46,504 nt of DNA from Steroidobacteraceae bacterium (GTDB lineage: Bacteria > Pseudomonadota > Gammaproteobacteria > Steroidobacterales > Steroidobacteraceae). Each line of letters starts with the position of its first letter. The stretch's first letter is position 1. The position numbers and the translations under genes were made by a program. The stretch covers positions 1 through 46,504 of the forward strand of contig JANWKL010000002.1 of the NCBI GenBank assembly GCA_025451375.1, read 5' to 3'. Under the pieces are notes generated by a model that worked only from the letters and a program-made list of their open reading frames with translations, made no database searches and was not told the DNA's origin. This document shows positions 1-11,089 of the stretch, piece by piece.

Positions 1-859
1 CCTCCTTGCCGATCACCTTGCAGATGTCCTTCCACACCGGCGCTTGCGCAATGAAATACAGGTAGGCGTTCGGATCGGTTTCCCAGCCCTTGCACTTGAT
101 GATCCAGCCCGGCTGTCCGCCGCCGGAAGCGTTGCCGGCGCGCGGCACCGCGCTCCCAAACTTGCCGTCCGGGTACTGCGGGTATTCCTTCATGATCTGC
201 GTGCGCGCCAGGCGCTGCTGATCGCGCAGCTTCACGCGGCACAGGTTCAGCACTCCGTCCTGCATGGCGGCGAGGACCTTCTGGCCGCGGCCGCTGCTCT
301 TGCGCTGGTAGAGCGCACAGACAATCCCGAGCGCCAGGTGCAGCCCGGTGCCGCTGTCGCCGATCTGCGCGCCGGTCACGAGCGGCGGTCCGTCGTCGAA
401 GCCGGTGGTCGAGGCGGAGCCGCCGGCACATTGCGCGACGTTCTCGTAGACCTTGCAGTCTTCGTAGGGTCCGGGACCGAAACCCTTGATCGAGGCGACG
501 ATCATCCTGGGATTGAGCTCCTGGATGCGCTCCCAGGTGAAGCCCATGCGATCCAGCGCGCCCGGGGCGAAGTTCTCGACCAGCACATCGCAATGCCTGA
601 CAAGGCGTTCGAGCACCGCTTTTCCACGGGCGGTCTTGGTGTCGAGGGTGATCGAGCGCTTGTTGTGGTTCAGCATGGTGAAGTACAGGCTGTCGACGTC
701 CGGGATATCGCGCAGCTGTTCGCGCGTGATGTCACCGGCTCCCGCGCGCTCCACCTTGATCACGTCGGCGCCGAACCACGCCAGCAGTTGCGTACAGGTC
801 GGACCTGACTGCACATGGGTGAAGTCGAGGATGCGGACGCCGTCCAGTGCTTGTCCCAT
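1..859 (-). CDS. frc: Formyl-CoA:oxalate CoA-transferase homologue (class III), C-terminus outside window
   Basis: The enzyme would move CoA from formyl-CoA to an acid such as oxalate, in the cytoplasm. About 286 residues are visible, and the frame is still open at base 1, so the C-terminal third lies to the left. The N-terminus reads [14 protein letters not shown]...[12 protein letters not shown], very like E. coli and Oxalobacter Frc. The catalytic aspartate of class III CoA-transferases is in IGDSGTG at about residue 168. The active-site glycine loop is [10 protein letters not shown], with Ser where Frc proteins I recall have Gly. The ATG at 857-859 has GGAG five bases upstream. It starts 15 bases after the ThDP enzyme stops, so the two are co-transcribed. 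The family call is firm. The natural acid could be oxalate or a 2-hydroxy acid, given the neighbour. Confidence 0.9.
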
Positions 860-874
860 AAGAGCTCCGGCGCG

Positions 875-2638
875 CTACTTGTACATGGTCTGGTTCTTGG
901 TCCCGGGCGCGTACTCGCGCGGGTCGACCCAGATGTTGATTACCGCCGAACGCTTCAGGCGCTGTACCGATTCACGCGCCCGTTGCAGGGCCGGCGCAAT
1001 CTGCGCAGGGTCACGCACCTCTTCGCCGTAACCGCCGAGCATTTCCGCGAACTTGCCGAACGGCACATCTCCGAGCAGATTGCCGACGTTGCCGCGCTCG
1101 GCGCCGTACTTGGCGATCTGACCGTAGCGGATCTGGTTCATTGCCGAGTTGTTGCCGATGACGGCGATGTAGGGCACGCCGAAGCGGTTCGCGGTCTCCA
1201 TGTCGAACGCAGTCATGCCGAAGGAGCCGTCACCGTAGTAACAGAGCACTTCCTTGCTGGGGTGAGCGAGGCCCGCGGCGATGGCGAAACCGGTGCCGAC
1301 GCCGAGTGAACCAAGCGCGCCGGGATCCATCCACTGGCCGGGCCGGCGCGGCCGGACCGCCTGCGCCGAGATGGTCACCACGTCACCGCCGTCGCCGATA
1401 TAGATGGTGTTGTCGGCGAGGAACTCGTTGAGCTCGTAGGCTACCCGGTAGGGATGAATCGGCTGGTTGTTCGACTTGAACAACGGCATGAGCTTTTCGG
1501 TCGCGACGGCTTCCGCTTCCGATAGTTTTTTCATCCACTGCCGGCGGGCCTGGCGCTTGTCCTGCTTCAGCCGCCCGCTGGCCGCCTGCAGCGCGGCTCC
1601 CAGGATGGCGCCGGGGTGGCCGACGAGGCCCAAGTCGATGTCACGATTCTTGCCAACCGTGCGGTAGTCCATGTCGACCTGCACGAGTTTCAGCTTGTTG
1701 CTGATGCGCCGTCCGTAGCCCATGCGGAAGTCGAACGGGGTGCCGACGATGAGGATGACATCGGCATCGGTAAACGCCTGGCCGCGGGTGCGGTCGAAGT
1801 GATGCGGGTCACCGGGAGGCAGCAGGCCGCGGCTGCCGCCGTTGAAGTAACCGGGGATGTCCAGGCCGCGCAGCAGCGCGATTGCCTCTTCGTGGCCGCG
1901 CGCCGACCAGACCTGCTGGCCGTAGAGGATGGCCGGGCGCTCGGAGTTGACGAGGAGGTCGGCGAGTTTGTCGATGTCGGCCGGATCGCCGAGCGAGCGC
2001 GTCGAGGCCCGGTAGTGGCCGGGCTTGGGCACGACGGCCTTGGTGACATCGACCTCGCGATCCAGAACGTCGCGCGGAATCTCCAGGTACGAAGGACCGG
2101 CGGCGCCGTTGAAAGCTTCGCGCGCCGCCATCGCGATCATGTCGGCGACCCGCTCGGTGCTCGGCACCGTGGCGGCAAACTTGGTAATGGGCGACATTAT
2201 GTCGACGTGCGGCAGGTCCTGCAGCGATCCCATCTTGTGTTGGGTCAGCGCGCCCTGGCCGCCGATGTGCAGCACCGGGCTCTCGGAGCGAAAGGCGGTC
2301 GCGATTCCGGTGACGGCGTTGGTGCAGCCCGGTCCGGCGGTCGTCACCACGCAACCGAGCTTGCCAGTCTGGCGGGCGTAACCGTCGGCGGCGTGCGCCG
2401 CGACCTGTTCGTGGCGCACATCGATAATGCGGATGCCCTCGTCTATGCAGCCGTCGTAGATATCGATGATGTGCCCGCCGCACAGCGTGAAGATGGTGTC
2501 GACCCCTTCGTTCTTCAGGGCCCTGGCGACCAGGTGTCCGCCGGACACCACGCCGGCATCGCGGCTCTTGCGCTGCAGGGTGTCTTCCGCGGTGGTCGTC
2601 GCCTTGCTGGCCGCGATCTTGGGCGCCGTCTCGAGCAT
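875..2638 (-). CDS. ThDP-dependent 2-hydroxyacyl-CoA lyase / oxalyl-CoA decarboxylase-like enzyme
   Basis: A thiamine-diphosphate enzyme of the acetolactate synthase/oxalyl-CoA decarboxylase/HACL superfamily, 587 residues with all three domains. The cofactor glutamate is in RHEQ (about residue 77), and the ThDP-Mg motif runs from GDGS (469-472) to NN (496-497). The Tyr-Glu pair known in Oxalobacter oxalyl-CoA decarboxylase (Tyr120-Glu121) is Leu-Gln here (GSLQDLP), as in human HACL1 (GAFQEFP). Segments such as VDGG/GDGGDVV and RWLDPGA/QWMDPGA resemble human ILVBL/HACL2. It may therefore split 2-hydroxyacyl-CoA into an aldehyde and formyl-CoA, or decarboxylate oxalyl-CoA. The open frame begins at an ATG ending at 2650, but GGAGG at 2644-2648 sits five bases before the ATG at 2636-2638, so I choose the latter. 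It lies between an OFA carrier and frc. Confidence 0.85.
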   Translation of the reverse strand: MLETAPKIAASKATTTAEDTLQRKSRDAGVVSGGHLVARALKNEGVDTIFTLCGGHIIDIYDGCIDEGIRIIDVRHEQVAAHAADGYARQTGKLGCVVTTAGPGCTNAVTGIATAFRSESPVLHIGGQGALTQHKMGSLQDLPHVDIMSPITKFAATVPSTERVADMIAMAAREAFNGAAGPSYLEIPRDVLDREVDVTKAVVPKPGHYRASTRSLGDPADIDKLADLLVNSERPAILYGQQVWSARGHEEAIALLRGLDIPGYFNGGSRGLLPPGDPHHFDRTRGQAFTDADVILIVGTPFDFRMGYGRRISNKLKLVQVDMDYRTVGKNRDIDLGLVGHPGAILGAALQAASGRLKQDKRQARRQWMKKLSEAEAVATEKLMPLFKSNNQPIHPYRVAYELNEFLADNTIYIGDGGDVVTISAQAVRPRRPGQWMDPGALGSLGVGTGFAIAAGLAHPSKEVLCYYGDGSFGMTAFDMETANRFGVPYIAVIGNNSAMNQIRYGQIAKYGAERGNVGNLLGDVPFGKFAEMLGGYGEEVRDPAQIAPALQRARESVQRLKRSAVINIWVDPREYAPGTKNQTMYK

Positions 2639-2748
2639 GCATGCCTCCATTCAGAACAAGTAGCGGCGAGGGTAGCCGGTCGTCGTAGTGCGCACCTCCC
2701 ACGCTCTTCCGGCGTCAGGCCGGAGGAGCGCAGGGGGCGAGCTCAGCG

Positions 2749-4050
2749 TCAGCGCGTCGCCAGCGTCGCGCCTGGAGCCACACTCACGGGCCGGCTGGTG
2801 TACGCGGCGCGCATCGGCTTCAGGACCACGATGGCCATCAGGGCCGCCAGGATGTTGAGAGTGGCGGCGGTGATGAATACCGCGTGCCAGTTTCCTTTCG
2901 CGGCGACCCACACACTGGCGACCGGCACCAGCAGCGCCGCCGTGCCCTTGGCGGTGTACATGAGTCCGGTGTTGGTGGTGGCGTACAGGGCCCCGAAAGT
3001 GTCCGTCACCGTCGCGGGGAAGAGGCTGTAGATCTCACCCCAGGCGAAGAACACCAGTCCGCTCAACAGGACGAACGACACGGGGTCTGTCCCAAAATTG
3101 GCCAGCGCGATAATGCCTACGCCCTCGAGCAGGAACGCGATCAGCATGGTCTGCTCGCGCCCGATCTTGTCGGACACCCAGCCGAAGAATGGCCGGCACA
3201 GACCGTTCAGGATGCGATCGAGGCTCAAGGCGAAGGTCAGCGCCGGCAGCGTTATACCGATGAGACTCACCGGGATGTCGGCCACCTTGAAGTCTTTGGC
3301 GATCGGCGCGAGCTGCGCGGTCGCCATCAGACCGCCCGCCGCCATCATGATGAACATGAGGTACATCACCCAAAAGACGGGGGTCTTGAGCATCTCCAGT
3401 GGCTTGGCCTGGTAGCGGCTCGCACCGGGGGCGATCTTGGGAGCCGCCGCCATGAAAGCCACTCCGGGAGCCATGATCAGAAAGCCGACCACCACGACCA
3501 CGATGCCCTGGAAGAGGCCAAAGGTGAGGAAGGTGTGCTCGTACCCTGAGCTCTTGATCATCTTGGCGATGGGGATGATGGTGGCCGCGGAACCTGCGCC
3601 AAAGCCCGCCGCAGTCAGACCCGCCGCAAGTCCGCGCCGCCCCGGGAACCACTTCACCGCATTGCCGATGCACGTGCCGTACACGGCGCCGGCGCCGATG
3701 CCGCCGATCACGGCCGCGAAATAGAACATCGAGAGGGAATCGGCGAAGGAATTGATCGTCCACGCGAGGCCGCAGAGCGCGCCACCGATGACGATCATCC
3801 ACTTTGGACCGAAGCGATCGACCAGGTAGCCCTCAGCGGGCACCAGCCAGGTCTCAAACAGAACGAATATTGTGAAGGTGACCTGGATGGCGGCCTTGCT
3901 CCAGTGGTACTTGGCGCCGATGGGCCCGACGAACAGGGTCCAGCCGTATTGCAGGTTGGCGACCATGATCATGCAGATCAGGCCGACGATGAGTTGCGCC
4001 CATGGGTTGGCGAGGATTGAGGTGTTTTGAGAATTCGAATCCGTGACCAT
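2749..4050 (-). CDS. OFA-family MFS transporter (oxalate/formate antiporter-like)
   Basis: A 12-helix inner-membrane carrier of the major facilitator superfamily, about 433 residues. The first helix pair (NPWAQLIVGLICMIMVANLQYGWTLF region), a WSKAAIQVTFTIFVLFE helix and the GAVYGTCIGNAVKWFPGRRGLA stretch are typical of the oxalate:formate antiporter (OFA) family. It probably imports the acid used by the next two genes, perhaps in exchange for formate. The frame opens at 4122, but the ATG at 4048-4050 (MVTDSNSQ) has a strong AAGGGGGAG five to six bases upstream and removes a non-hydrophobic leader, so I start there. The gap to the ThDP gene is 110 bases. A TTGACA promoter lies about 170 bases upstream. 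Family call firm, substrate inferred from neighbours. Confidence 0.88.
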   Translation of the reverse strand: MVTDSNSQNTSILANPWAQLIVGLICMIMVANLQYGWTLFVGPIGAKYHWSKAAIQVTFTIFVLFETWLVPAEGYLVDRFGPKWMIVIGGALCGLAWTINSFADSLSMFYFAAVIGGIGAGAVYGTCIGNAVKWFPGRRGLAAGLTAAGFGAGSAATIIPIAKMIKSSGYEHTFLTFGLFQGIVVVVVGFLIMAPGVAFMAAAPKIAPGASRYQAKPLEMLKTPVFWVMYLMFIMMAAGGLMATAQLAPIAKDFKVADIPVSLIGITLPALTFALSLDRILNGLCRPFFGWVSDKIGREQTMLIAFLLEGVGIIALANFGTDPVSFVLLSGLVFFAWGEIYSLFPATVTDTFGALYATTNTGLMYTAKGTAALLVPVASVWVAAKGNWHAVFITAATLNILAALMAIVVLKPMRAAYTSRPVSVAPGATLATR

Positions 4051-4217
4051 CGATGCTCCCCCTTCGACTAGGTTGAAGACGCCGTCGGCCGGCTGGCATG
4101 AAGTACTCGAGTCATGGCACACGCAGGCCGGGCATCGCAGCGAGCGGCGTCGGACGCCACCACCACGAATGCGACCCCTGGCTCGTGCATGAGGTTATGC
4201 ATTTTTAGTGAAGGCCG

Positions 4218-4466: not shown

Positions 4467-5171
4467 ATGAGCGTTTCGGTAAAACACAGCGCAGGCCACT
4501 TAGGCCTTGCTCCACTGACCTCGGTCAGCCTGTGCGATCAGGCGTACGCGAAGCTCAAGGACGCCATCGCCAACACCGACATCTACAACCAGCGCCAGGA
4601 GCTGCGCCTTGACGAGCGCGCCTTGATGCAGGCACTGGGGGTGAGCCGCACGCCAATCCGCGAAGCGTTGTCGATCCTCGAGCAGGAAGGTTTCGTCCGT
4701 ACCGTTCCACGCCGCGGTATTTTCATCATCCGCAAGTCCAAGCGTGAAATCATCGAAATGATCCAGATGTGGGCGGCGCTCGAGAGCATGTCAGCGCGAC
4801 TGGCGACGCTGCAGGCGCCGGACGCGGAGATCGGCAAGCTGCGTCACTTGTTCGATGAATTCCAGAACTCCCCGCCGGCGGAGCATATCCACGAATATTC
4901 GGACGCCAATATCGCGTTTCACCAGATGATCATCCGTCTGGGCGGCTCGCAGCTGATTGAGGACGCGACCGAGAACCTTTTCATCCACGTGCGCGCGATC
5001 CGTAAGGCGACCATCTCGCAGAACGATCGTTCCTCGCGCTCGATCATCGAGCACCTGAAAATCATCGAGGCGCTCGAGCGCCGTGATACCGAGCTCGCCG
5101 AGCGCCTCACCCGCCAGCACACCCTCGACCTCGCCGCGCACGTCGAGCGTTACTGCGACTTCCTCGACTAG
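4467..5171 (+). CDS. GntR-family transcriptional regulator, FCD subfamily
   Basis: A 234-residue cytoplasmic DNA-binding regulator. Residues about 20-85 form the winged helix (LDERALMQALGVSRTPIREAL, then the wing RTVPRRGIFI). Residues about 95-225 form the all-helical FCD effector domain. Its metal/ligand histidines and aspartate can be seen in DANIAFHQ, IIEHLKI and TRQHTLDLAAH. FCD regulators usually sense small carboxylates, which suits the divergent acid-transport/CoA operon. GGAG lies about eight bases before the ATG. The GATATATC palindromes upstream are the likely binding sites. Convergent with the LysR gene downstream, with a hairpin repeat between. Confidence 0.9.
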   Translation: MSVSVKHSAGHLGLAPLTSVSLCDQAYAKLKDAIANTDIYNQRQELRLDERALMQALGVSRTPIREALSILEQEGFVRTVPRRGIFIIRKSKREIIEMIQMWAALESMSARLATLQAPDAEIGKLRHLFDEFQNSPPAEHIHEYSDANIAFHQMIIRLGGSQLIEDATENLFIHVRAIRKATISQNDRSSRSIIEHLKIIEALERRDTELAERLTRQHTLDLAAHVERYCDFLD

Positions 5172-5232: not shown

Positions 5233-6231
5233 TCAGCCGCGCCGCCCGCGGGCGCGCTTGCTGCGCGCGGCGGCGCGCAGCTGCGGCAGGGGCCCGGACG
5301 GGCCGAATTGCACCAGCCGTTCGATCAGCGGTGCGCCCTCGCGCAGCAGGAATTCCTTGAAGGCGGCGGCTACCGGCGGCAGCCGCTTGCTGCGGTTATG
5401 CACCAGGTACCAGTGCAGGCGTGCGGGGAAATCCTGCACGTCGAGCACCACGAGATTCCCCGCTCGCAGATCCAGCCCGATGGTGTGGGCGGAGAGAAAT
5501 GCGATGCCCATCCCCGCAACCACCGCCTGTTTGATGGTCTCGGTGCTGTGAATCTGCATCGCGATGTGCAGCTTCGGAAACTGGCGTCCGAAGACCTCGC
5601 GCATTGAATTCCAGGTATCCGAGCCCTGTTCACGCTGCACGAACGGCTCGCGGTTCAGCAGCGCGCGCGGTATCTGGCGCGTCCCGGCAAGCGGGTGATC
5701 TGGCGCGGCGACGATAACGTAGGGATGCGGTGCGAATGGTATGGCGACGACGTCCATGTCAGCGGGCGGGCGCACCATGACCGCAAGATCCGTGAGGTTG
5801 TCCGCCAGGTGGCGCAGCAGCTGCTCGCGGTTGTGCACCGTGAGATTGAAGGTGACCCCGGGATGGCTCGCTCCGAAATGCGCCAGCAGGCGCGGGAAGA
5901 AGTAGTCACCGGCGCTGATCACGGCGACGTTGAGCCGGCCGCCGGTTACGCCTTTGAGGTGCTCGAGCCCACTCTGCGCTTCCTGCAGCCGCTGCGTGAT
6001 GGCCTTGGCGCACTGGAGCATTTCCTCCCCGGCGGGCGTCAGGTAAGTCCGGCGGCCGATCCGCTCGAACAGCGGCAAGCCCACGCAGGCCGCCAGTTCC
6101 TTGATCTGGGTTGAAACCGCGGGCTGCGACAAGTGCAGCTCCTCGGCGGCGCGTGAGAAGTTCATATGGCGCGCCGCGGCGGCGAACACCCGCAATTGCC
6201 GCAGGGTCACGTTCCTCATGGCTGCCAGCAT
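5233..6231 (-). CDS. LysR-family transcriptional regulator (CbbR-like N-terminus)
   Basis: A 332-residue regulator. The winged helix (about residues 5-65) reads VTLRQLRVFAAAARHMNFSRAAEELHLSQPAVS, the typical LysR helix-turn-helix and closest in style to CbbR. Residues about 95-300 are the periplasmic-binding-protein-like effector domain. The last 30 residues are Arg/Ala-rich. No clear ribosome site precedes either possible start: M1 at 6231 or M5 (MRNVTLRQ) at 6219. The second fits the family's usual length better. It is divergent from the small-protein/panE gene set, with 107 bases between, and probably controls it. Effector unknown. Confidence 0.88.
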   Translation of the reverse strand: MLAAMRNVTLRQLRVFAAAARHMNFSRAAEELHLSQPAVSTQIKELAACVGLPLFERIGRRTYLTPAGEEMLQCAKAITQRLQEAQSGLEHLKGVTGGRLNVAVISAGDYFFPRLLAHFGASHPGVTFNLTVHNREQLLRHLADNLTDLAVMVRPPADMDVVAIPFAPHPYVIVAAPDHPLAGTRQIPRALLNREPFVQREQGSDTWNSMREVFGRQFPKLHIAMQIHSTETIKQAVVAGMGIAFLSAHTIGLDLRAGNLVVLDVQDFPARLHWYLVHNRSKRLPPVAAAFKEFLLREGAPLIERLVQFGPSGPLPQLRAAARSKRARGRRG

Positions 6232-6338
6232 AGCGCTCAGGAGGTATTAGAGAAAGCATATGGTCGCAATAGAAACCTTTAATTTTTCCTTTGGAACAGG
6301 CGAGCCTAAGCTGGTCACCGTCCCAACAGGAGGCCTTG

Positions 6339-6593
6339 ATGCCACACGTTGTCAACGATCCGCTTGCCGTGGAACTCGAGGCCTACAACCGCGCGTTCAG
6401 CGAGCTGGAACTGCCCTGGCGTTGGGATGCCGACACCTTCCGTGAGCTGCTGAACGCGGCGCACGACCGGGACTTCATCGGCGTGTACGTCGAGCGCACG
6501 CGGCCGCACCTGTTGCGGGTCTACGAGAAGGCTTTCCTGCGCAATCTGGTGCTGGAAGCCAAAGAACGCTGCATGCGGGATCGCGCCGCGTGA
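6339..6593 (+). CDS. Small protein of unknown function (84 aa)
   Basis: I do not recognise this family. The ATG at 6339 follows AGGAGG by six bases, a near-ideal ribosome site, so the gene is probably real. A longer frame from 6291 lacks one. The product is soluble, charged and probably helical, with WRWDADTFRELLNAAHDRDF and RPHLLRVYEKAFLRNLV segments. It has no signal peptide or cysteine motif. It stands first in the plus-strand run, divergent from LysR and 50 bases before the ketopantoate-reductase gene, so it may be an accessory to that pathway. Confidence 0.7.
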   Translation: MPHVVNDPLAVELEAYNRAFSELELPWRWDADTFRELLNAAHDRDFIGVYVERTRPHLLRVYEKAFLRNLVLEAKERCMRDRAA

Positions 6594-6643: not shown

Positions 6644-7648
6644 GTGAAAATCGCGGTTGTCGGCTGCGGCGCGATCGGTGGATACGTGGCGGCGCGACTC
6701 GCGCTCGCCGGCGAAAGCGTCACCTGCATGGTGCGCGGCGCGAATCTCGCGGCGCTGCGACGTGTGGGGATCACCCTGATCATGAGCGACGGCGCGCGGC
6801 ATATCGCGCGCGGGGTCGCGGCCACCGATGACTATGCGGCCGCCGGCGTGCAGGAGCTGGTGATCCTGGCGGTGAAGGCGCATCAGCTGCCCGCCGTCGC
6901 GCCCCACGTGCCACGCCTGTGCGATGCCCGCACGGTGGTGGTCACCATGCAGAACGGCATTCCCTATTGGTACTTCCACCGCCACGGCGGGGATCTCGCC
7001 GGCAGCATCGTGCGCAGCGTTGATCCGGAAGGGCGCATTGGCGAGCTGATTCCGCCGGCGAGTGTGATTGGCTGCGTCGTCTACCCGGCCGCGCAGTTGC
7101 TGGCCCCTGGTGTCGTCAGGCACATCGAGGGCGAGCGCTTTCCCGTAGGCGAGCTCGATGGCACGGGCAGTGAGCGAGTGCAGCGGGTGTCGCAGTGCCT
7201 CACGCGCGCCGGATTCAAGGCACCCGTCCTCGAGGACATTCGTGCCGAGATCTGGCTGAAGCTGTGGGGCAACCTTACCTTCAATCCCATCAGTGCACTC
7301 ACGCGCGCAACGCTCGCGGATATCTGCCAGTACCCGGCCACTCGCGGGCTTGCGGCCGCCATGATGAGCGAGGCGCAGACGATTGCCGAGAAGCTCGGCA
7401 TCGTGTTCCGTATCGGCCTCGACAAACGCATCGCCGGCGCCGAGAAAGTCGGCAGGCACAAGACCTCCATGCTGCAGGATGTGGAGGCCGGCCGCGCGCC
7501 GGAACTGGAGGCAGTGCTCGGTTCGGTCGCGGAACTTGGCCGGCTGACCCGCACGCACACCCCGCACATCGATACGGTATACGGGCTCACGCATCTGCTT
7601 GCGCGCACGCTCGCGCTGTCGGCGCAGGTGGTGTCACCCGTGCGATGA
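6644..7648 (+). CDS. 2-dehydropantoate 2-reductase family oxidoreductase (ApbA/PanE)
   Basis: An NADP-dependent reductase of the ketopantoate reductase family, 334 residues. The nucleotide-binding motif VVGCGAIGGYVAARL opens the protein. The catalytic lysine region is AEIWLKLWGNLTFNPISAL near residue 200. The C-terminal half contains the family motif GRHKTSMLQDVEAGRAPELE. The start is GTG with GGGAG/GAGG just upstream. True PanE works in pantothenate synthesis, but many paralogues in catabolic clusters act on other 2-oxo acids or lactones. Clustering with acyl-CoA synthetase and crotonase genes makes a catabolic role as likely as pantothenate. The next gene follows after 7 bases. Confidence 0.85.
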   Translation: MKIAVVGCGAIGGYVAARLALAGESVTCMVRGANLAALRRVGITLIMSDGARHIARGVAATDDYAAAGVQELVILAVKAHQLPAVAPHVPRLCDARTVVVTMQNGIPYWYFHRHGGDLAGSIVRSVDPEGRIGELIPPASVIGCVVYPAAQLLAPGVVRHIEGERFPVGELDGTGSERVQRVSQCLTRAGFKAPVLEDIRAEIWLKLWGNLTFNPISALTRATLADICQYPATRGLAAAMMSEAQTIAEKLGIVFRIGLDKRIAGAEKVGRHKTSMLQDVEAGRAPELEAVLGSVAELGRLTRTHTPHIDTVYGLTHLLARTLALSAQVVSPVR

Positions 7649-8596: not shown

Positions 8597-8639
8597 CTGA
8601 GGTGCCCCCGTCGCGTATGCTTTGCCCGGAGGGGGAACC

Positions 8640-10286
8640 ATGAGTATCTACGACCAGGATCTGGACAAGAACCCTGCTAACTTCGTAGCACTTTCGCCGA
8701 CGAGTTTCGTGGAAAGAAGCGCCGAGGTGTTTGGCGATCTGCCGGCGGTGGTGCACGGCGCACGACGCTACACCTGGGCTGAAACTCGCGGGCGCGCGGC
8801 ACGCCTGGCGGCGGCCCTGCGCGAACTCGGCGCCGGGCGCGGCACGACGGTCAGCGTGATGCTCGCCAATACCCCGGAGATGATCGAGGCGCACTACGCC
8901 GTGCCGGCGCTCAATGCGGTGCTGAACACCCTGAACACGCGTCTCGACGCGGCGCTGCTTGCCTGGCAGATGCAGCACTGCGAGACGGCGCTGCTCATCA
9001 CCGATCGCGAGTTCTCTGGCGTCATGAAGCAAGCGTTGCGCGTTCTGCGCGATGAGCACGGCCGCACGCCGCGGGTCATCGACGTCAGCGACAGCGAATA
9101 CAACGGTCCCGGCGAGCGGGTCGGGGAATTTGAATATGAAGCGCTGTTGGCGCAGCACGCACCCCTCGCGTTGCTGGCGGGGCCGCAGGATGAGTGGGAC
9201 GCGATTGCCGTGTCCTACACCTCGGGCACTACCGGCAACCCCAAGGGGGTGGTGACCCACCACCGCGGCGCCTATCTGAATGCGGTGAGCAACGCGGCGA
9301 CCTGGAACATGCCGCACTTCCCGAAATACCTGTGGACGCTGCCGCTGTTCCACTGCAACGGCTGGTGCTTTCCCTGGACCGTGGCCATGCTCGCAGGCAC
9401 CCATGTGTGCCTGCGCAAGGTGGAGCCCAAGGCCATGTTTGACGCCATGCGCGCGCACGGTGTGGATCACTACTGCGCCGCGCCCATCGTGCATAACATG
9501 CTGATCAACGCGGAAGCTGCGCTGCGCGCGGGCATCAGCCAGCGCGTGCGCGGCATGGTCGCGGGAGCCGCGCCGCCCGCAGCGATGATCGAGGGCATGA
9601 GTAACATCGGCTTCGAGCTCACGCATGCCTACGGGCTCACCGAGACCTACGGTCCGGCGGCGGTCGCCGCCCGGCGCGACAGCTGGGCGGGTGAGGATCT
9701 TGCCGAGCAGACGCGCTTGAATGGCCGGCAGGGCGTGCGTTATGTGCTGCAGGAGGGCATGACCGTAATCGATCCGGAAACCATGGCGACGGTCCCGGCC
9801 ACCGGTGAGGTGACCGGCGAGATCATGTTCCGCGGCAACATCGTGATGAAGGGCTATCTGAAAAACCCACAGGCGACGCAACAGGCCTTCGCGGGCGGCT
9901 GGTTCCACAGCGGGGATCTGGCGGTGCTCGAGCCGGATCACTACGTGAAGATCAAGGACCGCAGCAAGGACGTGATCATCTCCGGTGGTGAGAACATCAG
10001 TTCGCTTGAGGTCGAGGACGCGCTCTACCGGCATGCGGCGGTGATGGCCTGCGCGGTGGTGGCGCAACCGGATCCGAAGTGGGGCGAAACGCCGCTGGCG
10101 TACGTCGAGCTCAAGCCGGGCGCCACGATTACCGCGGCCGAGTTGATCCAGCATTGCCGGGGACGCCTCGCCGCCTACAAGGTGCCGCGTGAGGTGCGAT
10201 TCGAGGAGATTCCAAAGACCGCGACCGGCAAGATCCAGAAGTTCGTATTGCGCCAGCGGGCTCGCTCGGCCAGCGCCATCGAATAG
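8640..10286 (+). CDS. AMP-dependent acyl-CoA synthetase (medium-chain/short-chain type)
   Basis: Activates a carboxylic acid to its CoA thioester through an acyl-AMP. The 548-residue protein carries the ANL-superfamily motifs in order: YTSGTTGNPKGVV (P-loop), the YGLTETYG adenylate motif, GWFHSGDLAV, the hinge/C-domain DRSKDVIISGGENISSLEVE, and the catalytic lysine in PKTATGKIQK. It resembles the FadD3/acyl-CoA synthetase family annotated as fatty-acyl or malonyl/dicarboxyl CoA ligases. The frame opens at a TTG at 8622, but GGAGGGGG sits six bases before the ATG at 8640. Followed after 11 bases by the crotonase, so co-transcribed. Confidence 0.92.
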   Translation: MSIYDQDLDKNPANFVALSPTSFVERSAEVFGDLPAVVHGARRYTWAETRGRAARLAAALRELGAGRGTTVSVMLANTPEMIEAHYAVPALNAVLNTLNTRLDAALLAWQMQHCETALLITDREFSGVMKQALRVLRDEHGRTPRVIDVSDSEYNGPGERVGEFEYEALLAQHAPLALLAGPQDEWDAIAVSYTSGTTGNPKGVVTHHRGAYLNAVSNAATWNMPHFPKYLWTLPLFHCNGWCFPWTVAMLAGTHVCLRKVEPKAMFDAMRAHGVDHYCAAPIVHNMLINAEAALRAGISQRVRGMVAGAAPPAAMIEGMSNIGFELTHAYGLTETYGPAAVAARRDSWAGEDLAEQTRLNGRQGVRYVLQEGMTVIDPETMATVPATGEVTGEIMFRGNIVMKGYLKNPQATQQAFAGGWFHSGDLAVLEPDHYVKIKDRSKDVIISGGENISSLEVEDALYRHAAVMACAVVAQPDPKWGETPLAYVELKPGATITAAELIQHCRGRLAAYKVPREVRFEEIPKTATGKIQKFVLRQRARSASAIE

Positions 10287-10297
10287 AGGAGCCGACG

Positions 10298-11089
10298 ATG
10301 ACCGATACTGCGGAACCCCTGGTTACACGCGCGCGCGACCCGCGCGGAGTGGTGACTCTGACACTGAATCGCCCGCAGGCATTCAATGCGCTCTCGAGCG
10401 GCATGCTCGCCGCGTTGCAGGGCGAGTTGGACGTTCTGCAACAGGATGAGACGGTGCGTGTTGTGGTGCTGGCGGCCGCCGGCAAAGCCTTTTGTGCCGG
10501 GCATGACCTGAAGGAGATGCGCGCCCAGCCCGCACTGCAGTACTACCAGGAACTGTTCGCGCAATGTTCCCGCATGATGCTGAGCCTCACGCGTCTGCCG
10601 GTGCCGGTGATCGCGCGGGTGCACGGCATGGCCACCGCGGCGGGCTGCCAGCTGGTCGCGCAGTGCGATCTCGCCGTCGCCTCGAGCGCGGCGCGCTTTG
10701 CCGTCAGCGGCGTGAACCTCGGCCTGTTCTGCTCGACACCCGCGGTGCCCCTGGCACGTAACGTGGCGCGCAAGAACGCGTTCGAAATGCTGGTCACCGG
10801 CGAGTTCATCGATGCGGCAGAGGCGCGTGCCCGCGGGCTGGTCAACCGCGTTGCGGAACCGGCAGCCCTCGATGCGGAGATTGAAAAGCTGCTGGGCAGC
10901 ATTCTTGCCAAGCCGCGGGTCGCGATCGCCATGGGCAAGGAGTTGTTCTACCGCCAGGTGGAGCTCGGCCTCGAGGCCGCATACCAGGCGGCAGGACAAA
11001 CCATGGCCTGCAATATGATGGACGGCGCGGCGCTCGAGGGCGTGCAGGCCTTTATCGACAAGCGCGCCCCGCGCTGGGGCTTTTCTTAA
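10298..11089 (+). CDS. ECHDC3-type enoyl-CoA hydratase/isomerase superfamily protein
   Basis: A 263-residue crotonase-fold protein. The CoA-binding segment is AGKAFCAGHDLKEM and the oxyanion-hole segment is VHGMATAAGCQLVAQCDLAVASS. It matches mitochondrial ECHDC3 closely (AAGCQLVA..., FAVSGVNLGLFCSTPAVPLAR). The two catalytic glutamates of classical hydratases appear replaced: the first position is Gln (GCQL) and the second lies in VSGVNLG. Plain hydratase activity is therefore doubtful. GAGGAG precedes the ATG by seven bases. It is the last gene of the synthetase operon. Confidence 0.88.
   Translation: MTDTAEPLVTRARDPRGVVTLTLNRPQAFNALSSGMLAALQGELDVLQQDETVRVVVLAAAGKAFCAGHDLKEMRAQPALQYYQELFAQCSRMMLSLTRLPVPVIARVHGMATAAGCQLVAQCDLAVASSAARFAVSGVNLGLFCSTPAVPLARNVARKNAFEMLVTGEFIDAAEARARGLVNRVAEPAALDAEIEKLLGSILAKPRVAIAMGKELFYRQVELGLEAAYQAAGQTMACNMMDGAALEGVQAFIDKRAPRWGFS

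Follow-up and report, generated by a model that had tools for sequence, protein, structure and literature searches.

We identified an operon at the start of the window, a 46,504-nucleotide stretch of DNA from a soil bacterium of the Steroidobacteraceae, which genomic evidence and published phenotypes lead us to regard as a likely oxalate operon whose ThDP enzyme, of HACL/ILVBL-like ancestry, replaces the canonical oxalyl-CoA decarboxylase (Oxc). This ThDP enzyme is probably an overlooked second kind of oxalyl-CoA decarboxylase, because the pair of ThDP gene and frc occurs in oxalate degraders whose genomes yielded no canonical oxc. The window corresponds to an entire contig of a draft genome with a size of 2.66 Mb and a completeness of 93.5%. 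No earlier description of this enzyme type was among the matches listed in a search of the open-licence literature.

The operon, its carrier and its CoA-transferase

The operon occupies positions 1–4050 on the minus strand and reads, in order, OFA carrier, ThDP enzyme and frc, with gaps of 98 bp between the first two genes and 15 bp between the last two (Table 1). The remaining part of frc was searched for in the organism's own genome and not found, and neither a canonical Oxc nor an OxdC was found there. An Rfam search of the window gave no match. The divergent GntR/FCD regulator probably controls the operon, and by analogy to the published ApbA2 of C. necator (PMC7486775), the PanE-type reductase is a possible oxalyl-CoA reductase. 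Homologues of the acyl-CoA synthetase and enoyl-CoA hydratase genes near the operon are both present in another locus (L015).

Table 1. Features of the operon and of the genes beside it in the window.
Feature	Position	Strand	Basis or remark
frc, formyl-CoA:oxalate CoA-transferase, 5' 286 codons, cut by contig end	2-859	-	TIGR03253
ThDP enzyme, 591 aa, proposed non-canonical oxalyl-CoA decarboxylase	875-2650	-	TPP_enzyme N/M/C domains, TIGR03254 score, orthologous group
NNSAMNQIRYGQ motif of ThDP enzyme, residues 500-511	1118-1153	-	
Leu143-Gln144 of ThDP enzyme, aligned to Oxc Tyr120-Glu121	2219-2224	-	
OFA-family oxalate/formate antiporter gene, ATG start; in-frame upstream GTG at 4122 also open	2749-4050	-	TIGR04259
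GntR/FCD regulator, divergent to operon	4467-5171	+	GntR + FCD domains
LysR regulator; 100-aa ORF that recurs in related loci	5233-6593		best model for LysR CbbR, 268 bits (cut-off 450); no Pfam match for ORF
PanE/ApbA-type reductase	6644-7648	+	NF005089, 452 bits (cut-off 223)
Acyl-CoA synthetase and enoyl-CoA hydratase	8622-11089		PRK08162 and PRK08139, both above model cut-offs

The original prediction described the carrier and the CoA-transferase as resembling oxalate genes, and both indeed scored above curated oxalate models: the carrier reached 604.4 bits against the oxalate/formate antiporter model TIGR04259 (cut-off 335), and Frc, despite its truncation, reached 533.2 bits against TIGR03253 (cut-off 504.2). 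Over 286 residues, Frc shares 68% identity with its E. coli counterpart, and it keeps Asp169 and Gln48. The best PDB relative of the carrier is OxlT (8hpj, 238 bits), and the carrier retains Arg at OxlT position 272 and Lys at position 355. We take these four residues to be functionally important.

A second frc, 85–92% identical to that of the window, lies in seven canonical oxc loci of the P. graminis genus (L153, 15488–19117, as well as L152, L154, L155, L156, L169 and L170), with FAH nearby in six and PanE in five. The window-type frc is therefore not exclusive to loci of the new ThDP enzyme.

The ThDP enzyme compared with Oxc and with lyases

Judged by sequence identity, the ThDP enzyme and its orthologues form a tight group. 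Scanning genome contigs returned 303 relatives, 80 of which were kept at 81–95% identity; these came mostly from records titled Gamma-, Beta- or Alphaproteobacteria, with one titled Acidobacteria, and the closest orthologues outside the own genome come from draft assemblies with Gammaproteobacteria or Proteobacteria in their titles. Among plasmid records we found 18 matches, eight at 64–86% identity (from Cupriavidus metallidurans, Caballeronia, Phyllobacterium, Streptomyces and Nonomuraea), ten at 30–35% and none between.

Against the Oxc model TIGR03254, the ThDP enzyme scored 220.1 bits, below the cut-off of 739.4, and among the best 25 of 51 models it passed the cut-off of none. The two top models among these 25 were PRK05858 'acetolactate synthase' (NF004516), at 443.3 bits with a cut-off of 587, and the actinobacterial HACL model NF058623, at 354.9 bits with a cut-off of 600. 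The rank of PRK05858 as top NCBIfam model among the 25 would suit an acetolactate synthase with frc as a chance neighbor, but the score stays below that model's cut-off, the linkage to frc spans Proteobacteria to Streptomyces, an Arg that contacts CoA is kept, and the own genome encodes a further ThDP enzyme, which groups with E. coli IlvB and Gcl. We consider this explanation highly improbable.

The enzyme had been said to lack the Tyr-Glu pair of Oxc, and this was confirmed across the group: the position of Oxc Tyr120-Glu121 is Leu-Gln in 86/86 distinct orthologues, whereas it is Tyr-Glu in 55/55 distinct canonical Oxc rows (100 orthologue and 74 Oxc hits before removal of rows shorter than 500 aa or identical over the last 400 residues). 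At Oxc Tyr483 all 86 orthologues have Asn; at Ser553 they have Asn (70), Ala (14), Arg (1) or a gap (1); and at Arg555, where E. coli Oxc itself has His, 85 of the 86 have Thr. All five Oxc residues compared are replaced, three of them identically throughout the 86. The window enzyme, about 25% identical to canonical Oxc, thus differs from it in the substrate-side residues. These replacements, together with the fact that the nearest solved relatives are lyases, count against reading the enzyme as a replacement Oxc. The Tyr, Glu and Tyr residues are not indispensable, since one canonical Oxc with Ala at Y126, E127 or Y485 is reported to retain about 10% activity (PMC7190790).

We rejected the Leu-Gln pair as a mark of HACLs. 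Phe-Gln or Leu-Gln also occurs in the 2-hydroxyisobutyryl-CoA lyase AcHACL of actinobacteria, in three other HACL/HACS chains and in E. coli IlvB, Gcl and PoxB, so the pair means 'not canonical Oxc' rather than 'HACL'. A phylogeny, proposed earlier as a check on whether the enzyme clusters with Oxc, instead placed the two in separate clades, each supported at 100/100, in a tree of 39 rows that included 20 orthologues and eight Oxc rows. The clustering named beforehand as a refutation of the original prediction was thus not observed. In the same tree AcHACL was the nearest neighbour of the group, with weak support (87/73) and long branches. AcHACL (7pt1), 35% identical to the ThDP enzyme, was also its best solved relative both by sequence and by fold, the first Oxc appearing only at rank 34 in a fold comparison for which the query model was weak. 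The resemblance to HACL/ILVBL lyases that was first noted from the sequence is therefore right, because AcHACL is the best relative by both measures and the Oxc clade stands apart. We drew no pocket argument from the structure model because of its low pLDDT (mean 65.4, and below 50 at residues 501–529 and 421–451).

The likeness to AcHACL lies in the fold and in Gln128, Leu127, His44 and Thr88, which are retained in 86/86 orthologues, together with the CoA-contact residue Arg273, also kept in 86/86. Gln128 does not discriminate lyases, since IlvB, Gcl and PoxB have Gln at this position as well; Arg273 is absent from these three enzymes, and its conservation in the alignment would count for the replacement-Oxc reading. 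A further CoA contact, Ser274, is found in 60 of the 86. The differences are that AcHACL Gln41 is Cys in the group, that the CoA contacts Gln255, Arg362 and Arg417 are not kept, and that the motif NNS(A/S)MNQIRYGQ (Ala in 80 and Ser in six at its fourth place), present in 86/86 orthologues, puts Asn at Oxc Tyr483, Gln at AcHACL Ile492 and Ile at AcHACL Glu493 in every one of them. The AcHACL row in the alignment is the E493A chain, the native Glu493 being taken from PMC8760513.

Human HACL2 (ILVBL) bears on this comparison as well. It is a eukaryotic enzyme and is not known from any such operon. According to Table 1 of PMC13327070, it shares with the ThDP enzyme an Ile in place of Glu493 and a Gln in the position of Gln128.

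The original prediction went further and proposed that the ThDP enzyme might be a short-chain 2-hydroxyacyl-CoA lyase; Frc would then hand the CoA of formyl-CoA to the 2-hydroxy acid of the next round, and acid would be exchanged for formate by the OFA carrier. The kinship with HACLs, the four retained AcHACL residues, the weakly supported sister position in the tree and the shared Ile of HACL2 are in its favor; the change of Glu493 to Ile and of Ile492 to Gln, the oxalate-specific appearance of Frc and the carrier, and the growth on oxalate of four carriers that yielded no canonical oxc (see below), which a lyase would leave unexplained, speak against it, and we judge it unlikely. A formyl-CoA-recycling cycle through Frc, as predicted, also fits our observations. 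As the substrate, oxalate is better supported than 2-hydroxy acids because Frc and the carrier are of oxalate type, canonical oxc is avoided across genomes, and the four carriers in which it was not found are published as oxalate degraders.

Gene neighborhoods of the orthologous group

The frc gene lies directly downstream of the ThDP gene in 76 of the 80 loci; two contigs end before this point, and two loci (L048 and L088) have no frc there. A homologue of the GntR regulator is present in 67/80. On the strength of this synteny we rejected a chance neighborhood of the ThDP gene and frc. In L048 (3.1–7.4 kb), an ADP-forming ligase directly follows the ThDP gene and might make oxalyl-CoA with ATP instead of Frc.

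In 54 wide loci, comprising 6 kb on both sides of the gene, we counted Frc in 53, GntR in 47, OFA in 44, FAH in 42, an ADP-forming ligase in 31, SucC in 17 and PanE in 16. Equally wide canonical oxc loci (n = 19, from the Paraburkholderia genus plus one Caballeronia) had Frc in 19, OFA in 16, GntR in nine, FAH in six and PanE in five, and the ADP-forming ligase and SucC were scored in 0/19. In Cupriavidus, 20 oxc loci were examined with short flanks, and in 10 of them oxc has an FAH gene next to it. The window operon is laid out like the canonical Oxc-Frc-OxlT operon, which likewise joins genes for an antiporter, a ThDP enzyme and Frc, and some canonical oxc loci also have FAH, PanE and GntR homologues nearby, as the ThDP-enzyme loci do; these shared accessory genes favor the replacement of Oxc. 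The PanE genes of L018, L043 and the canonical oxc locus L153 also pass NF005089. Published counterparts are the P. phytofirmans oxalate operon, Bphyt_6739-6741 (PMC3886118), and the frc-oxc genes with apbA2 of C. necator, whose oxc is presumed to be of the canonical type (PMC7486775).

One Phyllobacterium plasmid (NZ_CP088274.1; L111, 5098–18083) has two sucCD pairs, an ADP-forming ligase, oxlT, frc and a BhcR-type regulator around the ThDP gene, a gene set that hints at a link to glyoxylate use.

Such accessory genes raise the question of whether oxalate could be used without decarboxylation of oxalyl-CoA, with ligases making oxalyl-CoA, PanE reducing it to glyoxylate and the ThDP enzyme catalyzing another step, for example carboligation. 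The frequencies of the ADP-forming ligase, SucC and PanE in the wide loci and the BhcR gene that adjoins the Phyllobacterium cluster would agree with this route. Set against them are the near-constant presence of Frc, which needs a source of formyl-CoA, the absence of the ligase and of PanE from many loci, and the report that C. necator lacking frc-oxc and retaining apbA2 does not grow on oxalate, in a deletion that takes frc as well (PMC7486775). We regard this route as quite improbable, and the replacement of Oxc by the ThDP enzyme remains the reading we prefer.

Genome distribution, oxalate phenotypes and a proposed cycle

Genomes tend to carry either the ThDP gene or canonical oxc. In the P. 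graminis genus (Paraburkholderia; 117 of 144 genomes drawn), canonical oxc was above cut-off in 86 genomes and the ThDP gene was present in 31, with 11 genomes having both, 75 oxc only, 20 the ThDP gene only and 11 neither (Fisher p 1.1e-7). In the Cupriavidus genus (60 genomes), one had both, 41 oxc only, 13 the ThDP gene only and five neither (Fisher p 2.1e-8); the oxc count here comprises 40 above cut-off plus G264, where it lies in two pieces in two frames (C2:233048-234708), and G267, where it is split over contig ends, and the 14 ThDP genes include one partial match. These counts come from scoring only the best 10–22 candidates per genome, some of them drafts that can miss genes, and kinship among genomes inflates the p-values, so that the same pattern of avoidance in two genera is the stronger point. 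Among 33 genome records chosen as carriers of the ThDP gene, canonical oxc was found in two (G010 and G079 are the same by coordinates). Over both samples (177 genomes), the 12 with both genes and the 16 with neither count against a replacement Oxc, as do the loss of Gln255, Arg362 and Arg417 and the two loci without frc.

The ThDP gene is present in P. graminis C4D1M, P. kururiensis LMG19447/KP23, P. phenoliruptrix LMG22037 and P. tuberum LMG21444 (L066, L040, L071 and L067), and these four genomes, which are also counted among the 117, gave no canonical oxc (0/4) and no OxdC bicupin (0/4). We take B. graminis LMG18924 and P. graminis C4D1M to be the same strain. All four agree with published phenotypes: B. 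graminis LMG18924, B. kururiensis LMG19447, B. phenoliruptrix LMG22037 and B. tuberum LMG21444 are listed as oxalate-positive in Table 1 of PMC3886118, as are P. graminis C4D1M, P. kururiensis KP23 and P. tuberum LMG21444 in Table 2 of PMC13184526. Caballeronia grimmiae R27 carries the ThDP gene as well, and canonical oxc was not found in it. It is presumably the same strain as LMG27580 and would then be a fifth oxalate-positive carrier. LMG27580 is recorded as oxalate-positive in PMC13184526, which also (2026) uses several oxalotrophic Burkholderia s.l. strains without oxc as an argument for Oxc-free routes.

P. phytofirmans PsJN was considered as a counter-example and rejected. The genome taken as PsJN was assigned by one published oxc primer, which matches exactly in 1/144 genomes and there inside canonical oxc; the second published primer had no match within the short oxc locus, and the last residues of oxc fit it. 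This genome carries canonical oxc and not the ThDP gene. An oxc mutant of PsJN is reported not to grow on oxalate (PMC3886118), which together with this gene content favors the replacement reading.

Another oxalate enzyme could explain the growth of the carriers, which counts against a replacement Oxc. Our search for other oxalate enzymes covered the OxdC bicupin, which we rejected as the source of oxalate growth after finding it in 0/7 genomes searched (C. grimmiae excluded); a different cupin has been proposed as an oxalate oxidase in P. terrae (PMC5986945).

From these observations we infer which reaction the ThDP enzyme catalyzes, on which substrate, and what the accessory genes do. Frc uses formyl-CoA and oxalate, and its constant partner should therefore return formyl-CoA; where canonical oxc is lacking, the ThDP gene is the candidate. 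In the proposed cycle, the antiporter would import oxalate, Frc would transfer CoA from formyl-CoA to oxalate to yield oxalyl-CoA and formate, and the ThDP enzyme would decarboxylate oxalyl-CoA to the formyl-CoA used in the next turn, with formate exported through the antiporter or oxidized. In relatives, the ADP-forming acyl-CoA ligase beside frc, SucCD-like ligases and the PanE-type reductase could prime the cycle or divert oxalyl-CoA to glyoxylate, and the ligase beside frc might alternatively harvest formyl-CoA. Oxc and HACL are described as sharing a formyl-CoA-ThDP carbanion, and the decarboxylation step of Oxc as needing no proton transfer (PMC8760513), so a lyase-type scaffold could serve decarboxylation. 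Possible contacts for the oxalyl carboxylate are Gln at AcHACL position 492 and Asn at Oxc position 483.

A broader scenario, possible in our view but doubtful, is that Oxc arose twice. The group, found in Proteobacteria and Actinobacteria, would have come from AcHACL/HACL2-like stock with a different oxalate pocket formed by this Gln and Asn, which would explain oxalotrophs without oxc, and neighboring ADP-forming ligases would harvest formyl-CoA as ATP, so that substrate-level phosphorylation would add to the energy gained through antiport.

Oxalotrophy is usually scored in genomes by oxc and frc. If the group is a second Oxc, a class of enzyme has escaped gene surveys that rely on the Oxc family model, the formyl-CoA enzyme with its different pocket would be available to enzyme engineers, and oxalotrophs that lack oxc may carry out the same reactions through an enzyme so far overlooked.
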